The notes under the pieces were generated by a model. The model did no database searches. It was not told the DNA's origin and saw nothing but the letters and a program-made list of their open reading frames with translations. The translations under genes and the position numbers were made by a program. From Antedon mediterranea (Eukaryota > Echinodermata > Crinoidea > Comatulida > Antedonidae): a stretch of 64,000 bases of DNA. Location: positions 37,320,501 through 37,384,500 of the forward strand of contig NC_092672.1 of the NCBI RefSeq assembly GCF_964355755.1, in the 5' to 3' direction. Positions 30,728 to 53,200 of the stretch are shown piece by piece (position 1 is the first letter of the stretch; the number at the start of each line of letters is the position of its first letter).

Positions 30728-33700
30728 ATGTCTGACGGTAAATGTTAGCTTTAATTTTCACATTTCAATACAAATAGCCGATTATTTACTTCAAACTACG
30801 TCAATAATACTGCAACAAGATTTTTGCTAAGTACAGACAGATTCATAACAATCCTTAATATTGTAAAATCTGACTGTACACTGTATTGTATTTTGTAGGC
30901 CTATTATTTACTGTTACTGTTCAGTCAAGCATGACAAATAATTTATATAGGCATTTTCTTTTGTATTGTTTTCTGTTATGGTTTCTTAATTTTAGAGGAG
31001 GACTGTGATTGTCTGGTGGTTATTGTTGATGTTAATCCCGTCTGGTGGGGTCAACGTAGCAAGTCATCACATCAGGTACGGTATATACGCCGTACGGATA
31101 TCAAATCAATATTAAATTCCAATTTCTGTTAATAATGCAATAATAATGCAGTACCTTAATGTTTAAATTTCTTTTTCTTTTATAGATTACACTCACAGAA
31201 TGTATAGAGAATGTATTAGTTTTTGTTAATTCGCATCTAATGATGAAGCATACAAACCAAATAGCTATAATAGCAAGTCATACACATGAGAGGTAAATAT
31301 GCACACAGTTTTTATATGACTGCTGTCGTCTAACTTACTCAGATAGTACTGTAGTATATCGCCCTCATCGTACCACTCCTTATCTTCTACTTTGTTTATT
31401 CGATAAATAATTGTGTTGTAATTTTTCACTTTAAAATGTTTATAGCCGATTCTTATATCCGCGACGAAATAGTGAAAGCACAGATGCGACAGATGAAATA
31501 AGATCAGCCGATGGGAAATACGAGTTGTTTGCTTTGGTTGATAACACAGTCATGGAGGAATTTAAGAAACTTATGACTGAAAGTAAGTTACATGTCTCCG
31601 TCACCATCATTTATATCATCATCACAATCACCATTATCATCATCATCACCATTATCATCATCATCATCATCATTTAAATCATCATCATCATTTAAATCAT
31701 CATCACCATTTAAATCATCATCACCAATACCATCATCATTATCATCATCACAATCACCATTATCATCATCATCACCATTATCATCATCATTTAAATCATC
31801 ACCATTACCATCATCATTATTATCATCACAATCACCATTATCATCATCATTATTATCATCATCATCAACATCATCATCAATAATTATAAAAGTTAATATT
31901 GTAAACCACATCATTAAAGTACCTACATTTTTAGAATATCAGTATAGTATAAAAAGATTGTTAACTTGGTGAGGGAGACTTGTCACATACAAACTAATAG
32001 ATCCACAAATAGAAACAGTAAACAAACAAAACAAAAACAGAAATTGCACAAAAGACCACAATGAAATGATACCATCTTTTGATTTATCTTTTCAGGTCAC
32101 ACAGGCAGTGTCCATACAGACACGTTGCTATCAGGGTCTTTAGCAATGGCATTGTGTTATATAAACAAACTCGACAAAAAAAGCAAAGGTATGTTGTAAT
32201 ACTGATTGTTTTATTATCTTAGCATCATTCTTGTTTTGTTTTTTGTTTGTTAGTTACAACATCATTTATTTTTTATTTCATTTCAGTTGGAGTAAAAAGA
32301 AGATCAAGAATTCTTGTAAGACATTTATTTCTATAGTTTAACAACAAACTGAATATCCTTATCTTTTGCTTTGTGATTTTAGAAATTTAGCCCCCTGACG
32401 CCACTTCAATCTGAATCTATGACAGCCCCACTATCAGACATGGCAAATGCTATAAAATGTTATGTGACAACAAATATGATGTGCCCATATGGACATGATG
32501 ATGTCATATCATTACCATATTTGGGCACATCACTACCATATTTGGGCACATCACACTTTTTTTGTCAAACTAGTTTTATAGTGTAGACAGAGCTTTATAT
32601 ACATACCTACCCATACAGTAAACAACCACTATAATTCATAAACCTTGAGGAAAGTTCTTGAAATTGTGTCATTAATTTTGATGTAATATCATTCAGAAAT
32701 GGTATAAAATGTAATCATTACTAGGTTATCAAGGCCTCGGATGACAGTGCTTCTCAGTATATGAATTTTATGAACGTCATATTCACGGCCCAAAAGCAGG
32801 TACTATTATTGGTTTTGTATATTATGTAGTATTTAAATGAAATTAATATATAATACTTAATAGTGAGGGAAGTATTAGTTGTAAATGTTAATTTTACAAG
32901 AGTTTCTTAATCAATTTTTCATTTATTGTTTTTACAGAATGTTTTAATTGATGCATGTGTCCTTGGTAATGACTCTGGGTTGCTACAACAGGTAATTGAT
33001 TTTATAGTTACTATGGTTACTGTGGTCCACAGTTTCTAAAGGGAAGCTTACAGACATACCATATTTTTTACAGACATACCATATTGTGTAAATTAGTCAA
33101 ATATTAGCTATGTTACTTCCCAAGGCCGTAGCGAGAGGTTAAAAACAGATGAGGCAAAGATGCTTTAAATATAATGATTAAATATAAAATATGCAATCTG
33201 TGCTGGGGAATTTGGGAAGATGAGCACGATGGCCCTGCTTCCTACTAACAGACACTGTTTGTTGTTGTTATAGGCATGTGATATAAGTCATGGAATCTAC
33301 CTGAAGATACCACAAATCAAAGGACTAGTACAGTACTTATTGGTGAGTAAATACTTAGATACTGCGCAAGTAAGGACAGTACTTATTGGTGAGTAAATAC
33401 TTAGATACTGTACAAGTAAGGACAGTACTTATTGGTGAGTAAATACTTAGATACCGTGCAAGTAAGGACAGTACTTATTGGTGAGTAAATACTTAGATAC
33501 TGTACAAGTAAGGACAGTACTTATTGGTGAGTAAATACTTAGATACCGTGCAAGTAAGGACAGTACTTATTGGTGAGTAAATACTTAATTACTGCGCAAG
33601 TAAGGACAGTACTTATTGGTGAGTAAATACTTAGATACTGTACAAGTAAGGACAGTACTTATTGGTGAGTAAATACTTAGATACCGTGCAAGTAAGGACA

Positions 33701-34773
33701 GTACTTATTGGTGAGTAAATACTTAGATACTGTACAAGTAAGGACAGTACTTATTGGTGAGTAAATACTTAGATACCGTGCAAGTAAGGACAGTACTTAT
33801 TGGTGAGTAAATACTTAATTACTGTGCAAGTAAGGACAGTACTTATTGGTGAGTAAATACTTAGATACCGTGCAAGTAAGGACAGTACTTATTGGTGAGT
33901 AAATACTTAGATACTGTGCAAGTAAGGACAGTACTTATTGGTGAGTAAATACTTAGATACCGTGCAAGTAAGGACAGTATTTATTGGTGGATAAATACTT
34001 AGATACCGTGCAAGTAAGGACAGTACTTATTAAACGGCGTCATGTTCTTTCTTTCAGTGGGTGTTTTTGCCTGCTGCTAGTTTGCGTGACACACTGGTAC
34101 TGCCCCCAGCTATACAGGTTGACTATAGGGCAGCTTGCTTTTGCCATCGAACGCTGGTAGATGTTGGATATGTTTGTTCAGTTTGTTTGTCCAGTAAGTT
34201 AATGAAATAAAGACCAGTTGTATATTGCTAGACTGTTTTATTATTTGGTGGTATGGTAAATATAAGTAGTAGAAGAAAAACATAAAATTGAAATGTATTA
34301 ATATGTGGTGTTTGTTCTTTTTTTATTTTCAGTTTTTTGTCAATTTAGTCCAATTTGTTCAACATGTCAGTAAGTAGACTACATTTTTTTTTTTTTTTTT
34401 TTTACCATATTAAATGAGGGTGATCCAATTGCTGATCATTAGGGACCCTCAGAGGTTGACAAGACAAACAGATACACAAGATGCTCTACATAAACAAATT
34501 ATTACAAGTCTTTGGGAGTGGAGTTGTAATTTTGTCCTTACAAAAAAAACTTGACATGAGACGGAACTTGAACCCAGGACTATTGGAGTGGTAGCCAAGC
34601 ATCATAACCACCAAGCCACAACTCCACAGATCATTATTATTACATTAATACTGACACATTTGAATCCAAATTGTATCAAATATTAAATTTCCTTTTCCAG
34701 TACTGCATTCAAGTTTATGGGACCACCATCGATGAAATCAAAGAAGAAAAAAAGTAGTTTGCCGGCTAGCTGA
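30728..34773 (+). CDS. GTF2H3: TFIIH subunit p34 (GTF2H3/Tfb4), complete, 299 aa
   Basis: Core subunit of TFIIH, acting in transcription initiation and nucleotide excision repair beside p44. Twelve exons, phases all consistent (900 nt): 30728-30737, 30996-31075, 31186-31292, 31446-31582, 32096-32188, 32287-32315, 32725-32799, 32938-32991, 33274-33342, 34058-34193, 34333-34369, 34701-34773. The N-terminal von Willebrand A-like domain ([50 protein letters not shown]) is followed by YLLWVFLP and the C-terminal zinc-binding region ([18 protein letters not shown]), with a lysine-rich end. The human protein is 308 residues. Odd feature: the donor after exon 9 is embedded in a 46-bp minisatellite that repeats the exon end plus splice site. 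Poly(A) signal AATAAA at 34951. Confidence 0.97.
31590..31882. repeat. ATC/ATT trinucleotide microsatellite in GTF2H3 intron 4
   Basis: Nearly 300 bp of CATCAT/CATTAT triplets with TTTAAATCATC interruptions, starting just 8 bp after the splice donor of exon 31446-31582. On the minus strand it reads as a false open frame of Asp and Asn. Confidence 0.95.
32455..32595. mobile_element. Palindromic MITE copy in GTF2H3 intron 6
   Basis: Same family as 12424-12570; contains CATATGGACATGATGATGTC and ends in TAGTGTAGACAGAGCT. Confidence 0.75.
33330..34035 (+). repeat. 46-bp minisatellite carrying the exon 9 splice donor
   Basis: The unit is CAGTACTTATTGGTGAGTAA followed by ATACTTAGATACYGYRCAAG and TAAGGA. 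The first copy is the real end of exon 9 (CAGTACTTATTG|GTGAGT, donor at 33343). About 13 further intact GTGAGT copies follow, then one degenerate (GGTGGATAA) and one truncated copy. Every copy keeps the last 12 exon bases next to a consensus donor. Adding one unit to the mRNA shifts frame (46 nt) and meets an early TAA. Confidence 0.95.
34430..34627 (-). mobile_element. tRNA-derived SINE in GTF2H3 intron 11
   Basis: On the minus strand, a head beginning GTGGAGTTGTGGCTTGGTGG (A-box region about 34601-34616) is followed by GGGTTCAAGTTCC (B box, 34563-34575) and a short body. The spacing suits a tRNA-derived SINE; the tRNA source is not identified. Confidence 0.55.
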
Positions 34774-37331: not shown

Positions 37332-40300
37332 TTACCAATGTGCTTCCAGACGTGTTGCTACCTTCTCTATAAACGATATATGACTGGCATACAGGGAAAG
37401 GTCAGAGCCTATATCCGTCCAATGAACGTCGGCTGCATCATCGCCGGCATGCAACGTAAACTTTCCTACACTCTTTCCTGTGTCATCGTGGAAGTTGACA
37501 GCGACGGTTTCCATCCATGCATTGTCTGTATTCCGTGGGTCATCCACATAGCCTCTATAGACCTGAAATAATTGAGATGTATTGTATTAAATGCAATAAA
37601 TATTGTGTAAAGCTCTGTCTACACTATCAAACTTTATGTGATAACAAAAATATAATGTGTCCATATATAGACATGATGATGTCATATCACTACCATATTT
37701 GAGAATAATACTACCATATTTGGCCATGTCACATTTTTTTGTCAAACTAGTTTGATTGTGTAGACAGAGCTTCAACCTCACACCACCATTTAAGTATATT
37801 CAATGCCAATCGCATATAGTTGCAGCCATTAACCGTTAATTTTTCTATTTAAATACTTTAATATGTACCTCAATTCCATGGCGAAATAATTTGGCAACTT
37901 CTTTTTCCAAGGCCTTCTTCTCTTTTCCTGTGGCTTCTAAGGAATTCATTGCTTCTTCTCCAAATTCTCTTTTTAACGTTGCTGATACCGTGTCGCCAGC
38001 ATCTACCATTCCCTGTCATTGGGTAATAATAACCATTTATTAACCAACATATGCAGAGAAAAATTAAGGAGACACAACCGTATCTCTGACATACTTTTTT
38101 AAATACCTTCAAACATACTGTACTGTACAGAGAGCTATTTAAAACATCTCTGGTATCAACAACAAAGGCACATGCCACGCATATATGTATATAACATCTC
38201 TGGCATCAACAACAAAGGCACATGCCACGCATATATGTATATAACATCTCTGGCATCAACAACAAAGGCACATGCCACGCATATATGTATATCACATCTC
38301 TGGTATCAACAACAAAGGCACATGCCACGCATATATGTATATAACATCTCTGGAATCAACAACAAAGGCACATGCCACGCATATATGTATATAACATCTC
38401 TGGCATCAACAACAAAGGCACATGCCACGCATATATGTATATAACATCTCTGGCATCAACAACAAAGGCACATGCCACGCATATATGTATATAACATCTC
38501 TGGTATCAACAACAAAGGCACATGCCACGCATATATGTATATAACATCTCTGGCATCAACAACAAAGGCACATGCCACGCATATATGTATATAACATCTC
38601 TGGCATCAACAACAAAGGCACATGCCACGCATATATGTATATAACATCTCTGGTATCAACAACAAAGGCACATGCCACGCATACAAAGATCTACTCAGTA
38701 GTTAACAACAGAAATGATGGGCAATTATTACAAGAATCTTTAAACAATGCACTGCAGTGGAGTAAAGAATGGATGTTGGCTTTTAATAAAAGCAAATGCA
38801 TGGTGATGCACTTTGGGCATTCAAATGTTCATTTTAAATACCAAATAGATGAAGTTGAACTGGAAACAGTTGAGAAAATAAAGGACCTAGGAGTACTAAT
38901 TACTAATGACTGTAAACCAAGCCAACACTGCGCCAAAGTATCTCAGCGGGCCATGAACTGTTTAAGAAGCATCAGAAGGACTTTCGTATATATGGATAAG
39001 GATTGTTTTAACGTCATCTACAAGCATTATGTACGCCCACATCTCGAATTTTGTGTTCAAGTATGGAATCCGTATCTTCAAAAGGACATAAATGTAATTG
39101 AAAGAGTACAACGTCGTGCGACTAAATTAGTTCCATGTATCCGTTCATATTCATATGAAGATCGTTTAAAGTTTCTTGGCCTAACAACCTTGTATGACAG
39201 AAGAATTCGAGGTGACCTGATTGAAGCATATAAAATTGTTAAAGGTTTCGAGGGTGTAGCCAAGGATGACTTTTTCCAAATGAGAAGTAACATTAGCAGA
39301 ATTACTCGAGGGCATCACCTGAGATTTTTCAAGCCTACTTTCCATAAAGGATTGAACTGTAGAAGACATACCTTCTCGCAACGAGTAATAAACCATTGGA
39401 ACAGTTTACCAGCCGACGTTGTCAATTCTGAGACCGCTAATATCTTCAAGAATCGCATCGACACAATGTAGTTGATATGGGGTTTAAAAAGGCACATCGC
39501 CTAAACTTTCCCATTATAACTAAACTAAACTAACTAAACTATATATGTATATAACATCTCTGGTATCAACAACAAAGGCACATGCCACGCATATATGTAT
39601 ATAACATCTCTGGCATCAACAACAAAGGCACATGCCACGCATATATGTATATAACATCTCTGATATCAACAACAAAGGCACATGCCACGCATATATGTAT
39701 ATAACATCTCTGGTATCAACAACAAAGGCACATGCCACGCATATATGTATATAACATCTCTGATATCAACAACAAAGGCACATGCCACGCATATATGTAT
39801 ATAACATCTCTGGTATCAACAACAAAGGCACATGCCACGCATATATGTATATAACATCTCTGGTATCAACAACAAAGGCACATGCCACACATATATGTAT
39901 ATCACATCTCTGGCATCAACAACAAAGGCACATGCCACACATATATGTATGTAACATCTCTGGCATCAACAACAAAGGCACATGCCACGCATATATATAT
40001 CTAGAAGAGCATTTGATTTTTGGACGTATTGGTACAAATACTCACCCCTGGTATAGCCCATAGGTGTATAGCCCATAGGTATTTAGCCCATGGTATTTTT
40101 GGACGTATTGGTACAAATACTCACCCCTGGTATAGCCCATAGGCCGGAATCCTTACGCTTTATTGCTACAAACTGTAAAATGTTTTTACCATCAGAATGT
40201 TTTACTTTATCTGAATTGGTACTTCGTTTCCACCTGAATATAAAAAATAAAATTAGGATATAAATTAATAATCCTAAATTTAAGGTTAGTAAAATGTGTA

Positions 40301-44739: not shown

Positions 44740-47700
44740 GTTGTTGAAGTAAAATATACTGTGTTTTACAATAACCAATTTGGTTAGAGTAAAACACAAT
44801 GATAAAGAATAGGAAACATTTAATAATATGATAAATGTCATTACATAGCAATTTATCACTGTGTTTTACTATAACCAATTTGGTTAGAGTAAAACACAAT
44901 GATATAGAATAGGCAACATTTAATAATATGATAAATGACATTTACATAGCAATTTAGCACTGTGTTTTACTATAAACAATTTGGTTAAAGTAAAGCAGAA
45001 TGATAAAGAATAGGAATTCAATAATATGATATATGACATTTACATAGCAATTTAGCACTGTGTTTTACTATAACCAATTTGGTTAGAGTAAAACACAATG
45101 ATAAAGAATAGGAAACATTTAATAATATGATATATGACATTCACATAGCAATTTAGCACTGTGTTTTACTATAACCAATTTGGTTAGAGTAAAACACAAT
45201 GATATAGAATAGGAAACATTTAATAATTTGATAAATGACATTTACATAGCAATTTAGCACTGTGTTTTACTATAACCAATTTGGTTAAAGTAAAACACAA
45301 TGATAAAGAATAGGAAACACTTAATAATATGATAAATGACATTTACATAGCAATTTAGCACTGTGTTTTACTATAACCAATTTGGTTAAAGTAAAGCAGA
45401 ATGATAAAGAATAGGAATTTAATAATATGATATATGACATTTACATAGCAATTTAGCACTGTGTTTTACTATAACCAATTTGGTTAGAGTAAAACACAAT
45501 GATAAAGAATAGGAAATATTTAATAATAATGATTATTTACATAGCAATTTAGCACTGTGTTTTACTATAACCAATTTGGTTATAGTAAAACACAATGATA
45601 TAGAATAGGAAACATTTAATAATATGATAAATGACATTTACATAGCAATTTATCACTGTGTTTTACTATAACCAATTTGGTTAGAGTAAAACACAATGAT
45701 AAAGAATAGGCAACATTTAATAATATGATAAATGACATTTACATAGCAATTTAGCACTGTGTTTTACTATAAACAATTTGGTTAAAGTAAAGCAGAATGA
45801 TAAAGAATAGGAATTTAATAATATGATATATGACATTTACATAGCAATTTAGCACTGTGTTTTACTATAACCAATTTGGTTAGAGTAAAACACAATGATA
45901 AAGAATAGGAAACATTTAATAATATGATATATGACATTCACATAGCAATTTAGCACTGTGTTTTACTATAACCAATTTGGTTAGAGTAAAACACAATGAT
46001 ATAGAATAGGAAACATTTAATAATTTGATAAATGACATTTACATAGCAATTTAGCACTGTGTTTTACTATAACCAATTTGGTTAAAGTAAAACACAATGA
46101 TAAAGAATAGGAAACACTTAATAATATGATAAATGACATTTACATAGCAATTTAGCACTGTGTTTTACTATAACCAATTTGGTTAAAGTAAAGCAGAATG
46201 ATAAAGAATAGGAATTTAATAATATGATATATGACATTTACATAGCAATTTAGCACTGTGTTTTACTATAACCAATTTGGTTAGAGTAAAACACAATGAT
46301 AAAGAATAGGAAATATTTAATAATAATGATTATTTACATAGCAATTTAGCACTGTGTTTTACTATAACCAATTTGGTTATAGTAAAACACAATGATATAG
46401 AATAGGAAACATTTAATAATATGATAAATGACATTTACATAGCAATTTATCACTGTGTTTTACTATAACCAATTTGGTTAGAGTAAAACACAATGATAAA
46501 GAATAGGAAACATTTAATAATAATGATTATTTACATAGCAATTTAGCACTGTGTTTTACTATAACCAATTTGGTTATAGTAAAACACAATGATAAAGAAT
46601 AGGAAACATTTAATGATATGATATATGACATTCACATAGCAATTTAGCACTGTGTTTTACTATAACCAATTTGGTTAGATTAAAACACAATGATATAGAA
46701 TAGGAAACATTTAATAATTTGATAAATGACATTTACATAGCAATTTAGCACTGTGTTTTACTATAACCAATTTGGTTAAAGTAAAAAACAATGATAAAGA
46801 ATAGGAAACACTTAATAATATGATAAATGACATTTACATAGCAATTTAGCACTGTGTTTTACTATAACCAATTTGGTTAAAGTAAAGCAGAATGATAAAG
46901 AATAGGAATTTAATAATATGATATATGACATTTACATAGCAATTTAGCACTGTGTTTTACTATAACCAATTTGGTTAGAGTAAAACACAATGATAAAGAA
47001 TAGGAAATATTTAATAATAATGATTATTTACATAGCAATTTAGCACTGTGTTTTACTATAACCCATTTGGTTATAGTAAAACACAATGATATAGAATAGG
47101 AAACATTTAATAATATGATAAATGACATTTACATATCAATTTATCACTGTGTTTTACTATAACCAATTTGGTTATGGTAAAGCACAATGATATAGAATAG
47201 GAAACATTTAATAATATGATAAATGTCATTACATAGCAATTTAGCACTGTGTTTTACTATAACCAATTTGGTTAGAGTAAAACACAATGACAAAGAATAG
47301 GAAACATTTAATAATAATGATTGTTTACATAGCTAGCAATTTAGCACAATGTTTTACTATAACCAATTTGGTTATGGTAAAGCACAATGATATAGAATAG
47401 GAAACATTTAATAATATGATAAATGTCATTACATAGAAATTTAGCACTGTGTTTTACTATAACCAATTTGGTTAGAGTAAAACACAATGATAAAGAATAG
47501 GAAACATTTAATAACATGATAAATGACATTCACATAGAAATTTAGCACTGTGTTTTACTATAACCAATTTGATTAGAGTAAAGCACAATGATAAAGAATA
47601 TGAAACATTTAATAATATGATAAATGACATTTACATAGTAATTTATCACTGTGTTTTACTATAACCAATTTGGTTAGAGTAAAACATTTTAACTATGATA

Positions 47701-51649: not shown

Positions 51650-53200
51650 TAAATTCATATTCTTTATCCAAAACTAAATTGGTATAGTAAAACACAGTGC
51701 TAGCAATTTATCATATTATTAAATGTTTCATATTCTTTATCATTGTGTTTTACTCTAATCAAATTGGTATAGTAAAACACAGTGCTAAATTGCTATGTGA
51801 ATGTCATTTATCATATTTTTAAATGTTTCCTATTCTTTATCATTGTGCTTTACCATAACCAAATTGGTTATAGTAAAACACAGTGCTAAATTGCTATGTA
51901 AATGTTATATATCATATTATTAAATTCCTATTCTTTATCATTGTGTTTTACTCTAACCAAATTGGTTATAGTAAAACACAGTGATAAATTGCTATGTAAA
52001 TGTAATTTATCATATTATTAAATGTTTCCTATTCTTTATCATTGTGTTTTACTCTAACCAAATTGGTTATAGTAAAACACAGTGATAAATTGCTATGTAA
52101 CTGTAATTTATCATGTTATTAAATGTTTCCTATTCTTTATCGTTGAGTTTTACTCTAATCAAATTGGTTATAGTAAAACACAGTGCTAAATTGCTATGTA
52201 AATGTTATATATCATATTATTAAATGTTTCCTATTCTTTATCATTGTGTTTTACTCTAATCTGATTTGTTATAGTAAAACACAGTGCTAAATTGCTATGT
52301 GAATGTCATTTATCATGTTATTAAATGTTTCCTATTCTTTATCATTGTGCTTTACTCTAACCAAATTGGTTATAGTAAAACACAGTGCTAAATTGCTATG
52401 TAAATGTCATTTATCATGTTATTAAATGTTTCTTATTCTTTATCATTGTGTTTTACTCTAACCAAATTGGTTAGAGTAAAACACAGTGATAAATTGCTAT
52501 GTAAATGTAATTTATCATATTATTAAATGTTTCCTATTCTTTATCATTGTGTTTTACTCTAACCAAATTGGTTATAGTAAAACACAGTGATAAATTGCTA
52601 TGTAAATGTAATTTATCATGTTATTAAATGTTTCCTATTCTTTATCGTTGTGTTTTACTCTAATCAAATTGGTTATAGTAAAACACAGTGCTAAATTGCT
52701 ATGTAAATGTTATATATCATATTATTAAATGTTTCCTATTCTTTATCATTGTGTTTTACTCTAATCTGATTGGTTATAGTAAAACACAGTGCTAAATTGC
52801 TATGTGAATGTCATTTATCATGTTATTAAATGTTTCCTATTCTTTATCATTGTGCTTTACTCTAACCAAATTGGTTATAGTAAAACACAGTGCTAAATTG
52901 CTAAATGTCATTTATCATGTTATTAAATGTTTCTTATTCTTTATCATTGTGTTTTACTCTAACCAAATTGGTTATAGTAAAACACAGTGCTAAAAATTGC
53001 TATGTAAATGTAATTTATCATATTATTAAATGTTTCCTATTCTTTATCATTGTGTTTTACTCTAACCAAATTGGTTATAATTTATTTAATTTCATTTCAA
53101 AAGACATTTACCTAAATTGCTATTTAAATGTCATTTATCAAATTATTAAATGTTTCCTATTATTTATCTGGTTATATAGTAAAACACTGTGCTAAATTGC
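51650..53200. repeat. ~100-bp palindromic satellite, right array (inverted)
   Basis: About 15 monomers of the same ~100-bp satellite as 44740-47850 but in the opposite orientation (TTTCCTATTCTTTATCATTG, GTGTTTTACTCTAACC), ending near 53200. 51301-51649 between the foldback element and this array shows nothing else. Confidence 0.93.

Follow-up and report, generated by a model that had tools for sequence, protein, structure and literature searches.

Exon 9 of the GTF2H3 gene of the crinoid Antedon mediterranea ends inside the first unit of a 46-bp minisatellite, and each of the first 14 units carries an identical copy of its 5' splice site. Tandem repeats across exon-intron boundaries are known as 'mirages', a name given in the amphioxus Adh3 gene (PMC3087553, PMC3902484, where Canestro et al. 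2002 NAR 30:2871 is cited). We consider it probable (about 0.8) that the GTF2H3 array is a young, mostly neutral minisatellite of this type, which the gene would tolerate with the first donor normally used and with early stops in most mis-spliced RNAs. The same layout was found in nine other genes.

The GTF2H3 gene and its minisatellite

The window, i.e. the whole stretch of 64,000 nucleotides that was analysed, contains the following features, all on the plus strand; a slash marks a splice junction.

30728-34773 (+): GTF2H3 (TFIIH p34 / Tfb4) gene, from start codon to stop codon, 12 coding exons
30728-30737, 30996-31075, 31186-31292, 31446-31582, 32096-32188, 32287-32315 (+): coding exons 1 to 6
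32725-32799, 32938-32991, 33274-33342, 34058-34193, 34333-34369, 34701-34773 (+): coding exons 7 to 12
33274-33342 (+): exon 9, 69 nt, 3' end CAGTACTTATTG; the final 13 nt are part of repeat unit 1
33330-34031 (+): minisatellite from TRF and the unit table, with the 46-bp unit ACAGTACTTATTGGTGAGTAAATACTTAGATACTGTGCAAGTAAGG in 15 complete copies, followed by a 12-nt stub (34020-34031)
33343-33350 (+): authentic 5' splice site (donor 1), GTGAGTAA after TTG, the sole donor giving full-length p34
33343-34057 (+): intron 9, 715 nt long; with a single unit it would measure about 71 nt
33370-33375 (+): second donor-like site CAA/GTAAGG, the first of 15, one per unit
33389-33948 (+): donors 2 to 14, GTGAGTAA unchanged, from 33389 every 46 nt to 33941
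33974-34019 (+): unit 15, main donor lost (GGTGGATAA), no good donor
34020-34057 (+): 3' end of intron 9 with the 12-nt partial unit; acceptor TTCTTTCTTTCAG/TGG, outside the repeat

The joined exons translate into a protein of 299 aa that matches human TFIIH p34 (E 8e-103) and the Pfam Tfb4 profile (353 bits, profile positions 3-273 of 273). GTF2H3 is intact and single-copy; no other Tfb4 gene was found in the genome. Exon 9 ends with the codons CAG TAC TTA TTG and exon 10 starts with TGG GTG; the resulting junction, QYLL/WVFL, is identical in human p34 in the protein alignment, and donor 1 (33343) therefore makes the normal protein. Both the identity of the gene and exon given in the first-pass annotation, and its statement that the first unit is the real junction, are correct. 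The other nine GTF2H3 introns that were measured span 98-513 nt, against 715 nt for intron 9. An impure ATC triplet array is also present in intron 4 (31615-31879) and starts about 32 nt past the exon 4 donor.

TRF describes the array at 33330-34031 with a period of 46, 15.3 copies, 94% match and a score of 1264, and the minisatellite multiplying the exon 9 donor, as first proposed, is real. Its start lies 13 nt inside exon 9, and the exonic portion of the unit is these 13 nt (ACAGTACTTATTG, 33330-33342), not the 12 bases given initially. The units vary in only a few columns: a few changes recur from unit to unit, and unit 15 has three of its own. One and the same 5-unit block forms units 2-6 and units 7-11, with a difference of one base, and this repeated block is probably the sign of a recent block duplication.

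This arrangement agrees with the structural definition of a mirage: a tandem repeat of the minisatellite type (46 bp x 15.3, 94% match), a unit across a genuine exon-intron boundary (13 nt of exon 9 and the start of intron 9, from the p34 alignment), and splice signals in many units with the genuine boundary at the array edge (a donor in units 1-14, that of unit 1 being the genuine one). The name was absent from the first-pass annotation, as were the second donor of each unit, its in-frame option of +27 nt and the recurrence across the genome.

We considered whether the unit is a dispersed element and rejected this, as the array locus is the one place where it was found: a search of the 354-Mb genome with a 20-nt core at up to 2 mismatches gave nothing elsewhere except two lone sites with 2 mismatches. 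In this assembly 11 large contigs hold 353.5 of 354.4 Mb. The window has a GC content of 33%; contig number and GC content do not seem to match Branchiostoma. Minisatellites make up 21% of the window; none of its other 18 minisatellites is a donor array. Among these other arrays, a common 101-bp repeat occurs in opposite orientation at 44758-47686 and 51705-53079, with about 4 kb between. A common 50-bp repeat (38143-38683 and 39541-40000) flanks a reverse-transcriptase-like ORF (38545-39471), as if a retroelement had carried, or sat within, an array.

Donor sites and their coding outcomes

The first-pass estimate of about 14 near-identical donors was accurate, as the 9-mer TTGGTGAGT is invariant across units 1-14. 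The claim that all later units keep the donor applies to units 2-14; unit 15, at the array edge, reads TTGGTGGAT at the same position. According to a textbook matrix, the main donor scores 8.9 bits and CAA/GTAAGG 8.1 bits, and the array contains 29 donor-like sites of at least 7 bits in total (14 main donors and 15 CAA/GTAAGG). Just 13 sites reach 8.9 bits on the plus strand in the remaining 63.3 kb of the window, and the donor count of the array is therefore far above chance.

Donor 1 alone leads to normal p34 (299 aa, full Tfb4 domain). Downstream donors had been said to add 46 nt per unit and an early stop, which is correct for donors 3-14, where translation runs for 235 aa and ends in unit 2. 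With donor 2, the additional 46 nt shift the frame, and the stop comes 23 nt into exon 10. Each of the stops from donors 2-14 is followed by a later junction at a distance of more than 50 nt, so that nonsense-mediated decay (NMD) would be expected where this pathway works as in vertebrates.

Same layout in other genes

The genome was searched for donor octamers or heptamers that recur as three spaced copies, and the 5' flanks of 37 arrays, that of GTF2H3 included, were read unblinded. The arrays were drawn from among the matches listed (about 100 places per listing, dominated by low-numbered contigs, with a few listed arrays omitted). At least 10 of the 37 strong-donor-octamer arrays among the matches listed, including GTF2H3, start at homology-supported coding exon ends, a figure that counts layouts and does not measure a preference of arrays for real donors. 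The authentic donor was the first copy in all of the arrays starting at such ends (10/10). In the nine other genes (5' edges labelled L072, L083, L086, L088, L096, L098, L099, L115 and L119), the minisatellite begins a few nt inside the exon and multiplies the donor, with units of about 21-47 bp. The upstream and the next exon are both recognisable, and correctly joined from the first donor, at four of these loci (DHX8, TDP2, DNAH1 and EHHADH). The support for each array is as follows.

DHX8: homology across the junction, E 7e-58
TDP2: homology across the junction, E 2e-33
DNAH1: homology across the junction, E 4e-33
EHHADH: homology across the junction, E 1e-26
TIMELESS: upstream exon only, E 2e-18
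CMP-sialic acid transporter: upstream exon only, E 1e-20
UTP6: upstream exon only, E 1e-7
NEK-like kinase: upstream exon only, weak (7e-4, whole-sequence score)
TPR protein: upstream exon only, weak (Pfam matches below cut-off)

At three further arrays (L085, L097 and L100), the upstream stretch is open and bounded by an acceptor, without a homologue, and the first copy is the donor at its end. L074 was rejected as an exon-anchored case, since this 48-bp repeat has no clear exon end. For the octamer AGGTATGT, a threshold of at least 20% of new arrays at real exon ends was fixed before the flanks were examined; it was reached, with 2 of 7 arrays of this fresh octamer at such ends.

Acceptor octamers gave 1 of 13 arrays at a real acceptor. 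This mirror case (L101, G000 C1:41235906 onward) repeats the start of a DDX54-like exon in a 39-bp unit, with the last copy being the real acceptor. The difference between donors (8/30 or 11/30) and acceptors (1/13) is not significant (Fisher p = 0.24 or 0.07). Another locus (L108, G000 C6:1773587) carries at least three copies of an 18-bp unit, TTTTTTCAGGTAAGTCAC, in which an acceptor is directly followed by a donor, as in a recursive splice site.

Across the genome, arrays of donor motifs showed no consistent excess over arrays of the reversed motifs. The numbers of places, in which a single array is counted many times, were 463 for the motif and 413 for its reversed control with GGTGAGT, 193 and 230 with AGGTAAGT, 69 and 81 with TGGTGAGT, 249 and 163 with AGGTAAGA, 271 and 92 with AGGTGAGT, and 544 and 277 with AGGTATGT. 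As the listings of AGGTGAGT and AGGTATGT are dominated by dispersed C3 satellites, these counts do not amount to a consistent enrichment of donor motifs. Counted singly, the octamer AGGTAAGT occurs less often than its reversed form does (12,558 vs 20,543). The C3 satellites comprise a 34-bp unit that includes a perfect donor octamer (AGGTGAGTAACATTAGATCATTAGGGACAGGTAT) and another unit of 23 bp (AGGTATGTACACACTATAACAAA), found at several places (G000 C3:20.09-21.65 Mb, C3:21.10-22.24 Mb).

Donor-spanning minisatellites might form a class that extends across the genome in conserved genes (TFIIH p34, DHX8, DNAH1, EHHADH, TDP2, TIMELESS, UTP6 and others), with the authentic donor always the first in rows of a handful to about 27 near-identical donors, with a rule of 'first donor wins' in vivo and with leaky isoforms that rise with copy number. 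We put this forward tentatively, as a proposal that may well prove too broad.

Choice of donor and alternative explanations

Two outcomes had been opposed in the first-pass annotation, namely the choice of the first donor and a poison-isoform switch. The first is favoured by the ten arrays described above and by the splicing of lancelet mirages (see below), and the switch finds no support in the sequence; some leaky use of later donors may nevertheless occur. According to the switch explanation, a steady share of transcripts would use donors 2-14 and be degraded, the number of units would tune the GTF2H3 level, and the array would be under selection. Donors 2-14 do equal donor 1 by sequence and lead to stops, and a minisatellite of human IFI6 has been reported as a source of alternative donors, as cited in PMC4526556. 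The stops after downstream donors are nevertheless not special, because GTRAGT contains TRA, and a stop occurs within two units of the real donor in all seven class genes with a readable frame. Arrays of the same kind occur in genes unrelated to one another, as would be expected from neutral expansion, unit 15 has lost its main donor, and donor arrays do not consistently exceed reversed-motif arrays; moreover, the units are too alike to reveal selection on donors. We therefore regard such a switch as unlikely.

RNA folding gave no basis for the selection of donor 1. The RNA UACUUAUUGGUGAGUA (33334-33349, recurring in each unit) is self-complementary when G-U pairs are allowed, so that the exon end is similar to the U1 snRNA 5' end and could pair with the donor; the folding of this region and of the units showed nothing unusual compared with shuffled units. 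The units of the array are able to pair with one another, and arrays of shuffled units fold equally well (fraction 0.40), for which reason folding was rejected as the selector. Accessibility was rejected as well, since the unpaired probability of donor 1 is not above that of the other donors, a result that is also compatible with a poison switch. As folding fails to single out donor 1, exon-body signals, the order of transcription or the decay of mis-spliced RNA remain as candidates for the basis of the choice.

A stable minor isoform, in which the first CAA/GTAAGG site (33370) is used at times, is very improbable. The site scores only slightly below donor 1 and its use would insert 27 nt in frame without a stop, placing the nine residues VSKYLDTAQ before WVFL; on the other hand, it has an A at position -1, and the nine residues would break a stretch conserved with human p34. 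An artefact of assembly as the source of the array, or of its length, is hardly credible: the copy number of long minisatellites is often misassembled, and one lancelet mirage has been described as aberrantly assembled in the report consulted (PMC3087553), but the unit differences are ordered, with the 5-unit block repeated with a private change, and the layout recurs in nine unrelated genes, so that an error in copy number is possible and an array invented by the assembly is not likely.

Proposed origin of the array

A mostly neutral origin accords with the sole complete Tfb4 product from donor 1, the near-identical units, the 5-unit block and the recurrence at exon ends. A tandem duplication between two ACAGTACTTATT stretches would have reached from a point 13 nt inside exon 9 into intron 9; in the simplest course, its ends would have been the copy of this 12-mer at the end of the exon and the copy that is now the stub at 34020. 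The resulting unit, an exon tail with a donor, would then have expanded by slippage or unequal exchange, including the duplication of the 5-unit block, and intron 9 would have been lengthened from about 71 nt to its present size, so that 14 identical donors now follow one another from its start. The spliceosome would mainly take donor 1, and the remaining copies would be removed with the intron. Transcripts from later donors, with a stop upstream of later junctions, would be degraded where NMD operates. A donor-spanning array may be tolerated if the first donor is used, because the later copies then leave with the intron; and given the share of minisatellites in the window, overlaps with splice junctions must arise often.

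One consideration counts against the use of the first donor. When duplicated donors compete in experiments, the intron-proximal copy is often preferred, and by that rule donor 14 would be used; natural arrays are informative for this reason.

Comparison with known systems and significance

Later amphioxus mirages were described in the globins BflGb6 and BflGb9, troponin C and PGBD5; RT-PCR of Adh3 and the globins suggested normal splicing despite the mirages, which show length polymorphism and somatic instability (PMC3087553, PMC3902484). The reports so far come from cephalochordates, which is the habitat of the term and not a structural criterion (PMC3087553, PMC3902484). Compared with these, the GTF2H3 array has 14 identical donors and 15 secondary ones and lies in a housekeeping gene. 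In the minisatellite of the human IFI6 (6-16) gene, two downstream units reportedly serve as donors, and three mRNA species result (Turri et al. 1995 NAR 23:1854, as described in PMC4526556). As far as these accounts go, both arrays have a splice donor in each repeat unit and downstream units right behind the normal donor; in contrast to IFI6, donors 2-14 of GTF2H3 are predicted from the DNA to lead to a frameshift or a stop.

Introns may also be gained by tandem genomic duplication, for example in a potato RdRp gene (PMC4974935), and a model of this kind is attributed to Rogers in PMC3087553. In the cases outlined there, as in GTF2H3, duplication multiplies splice signals, but GTF2H3 has no new intron and an existing one was lengthened. 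An intron gained in this way was rejected for GTF2H3, as both intron ends would derive from the unit and the acceptor TTTCAG (34057) lies beyond the last partial unit.

The GTF2H3 array thus belongs to a known but little-studied kind, and its recurrence across the genome adds interest. The choice of the spliceosome among identical donors has been studied mostly with artificial constructs. Rows of up to about 27 near-identical donors in conserved genes, where the coding consequence of each donor can be read, provide a natural test of donor choice, which bears on whether the first donor is the exclusive choice, how frequent slips are and whether they increase with copy number. The recurrence suggests that mirages may arise more broadly in genomes rich in minisatellites, and that introns may lengthen by this route.
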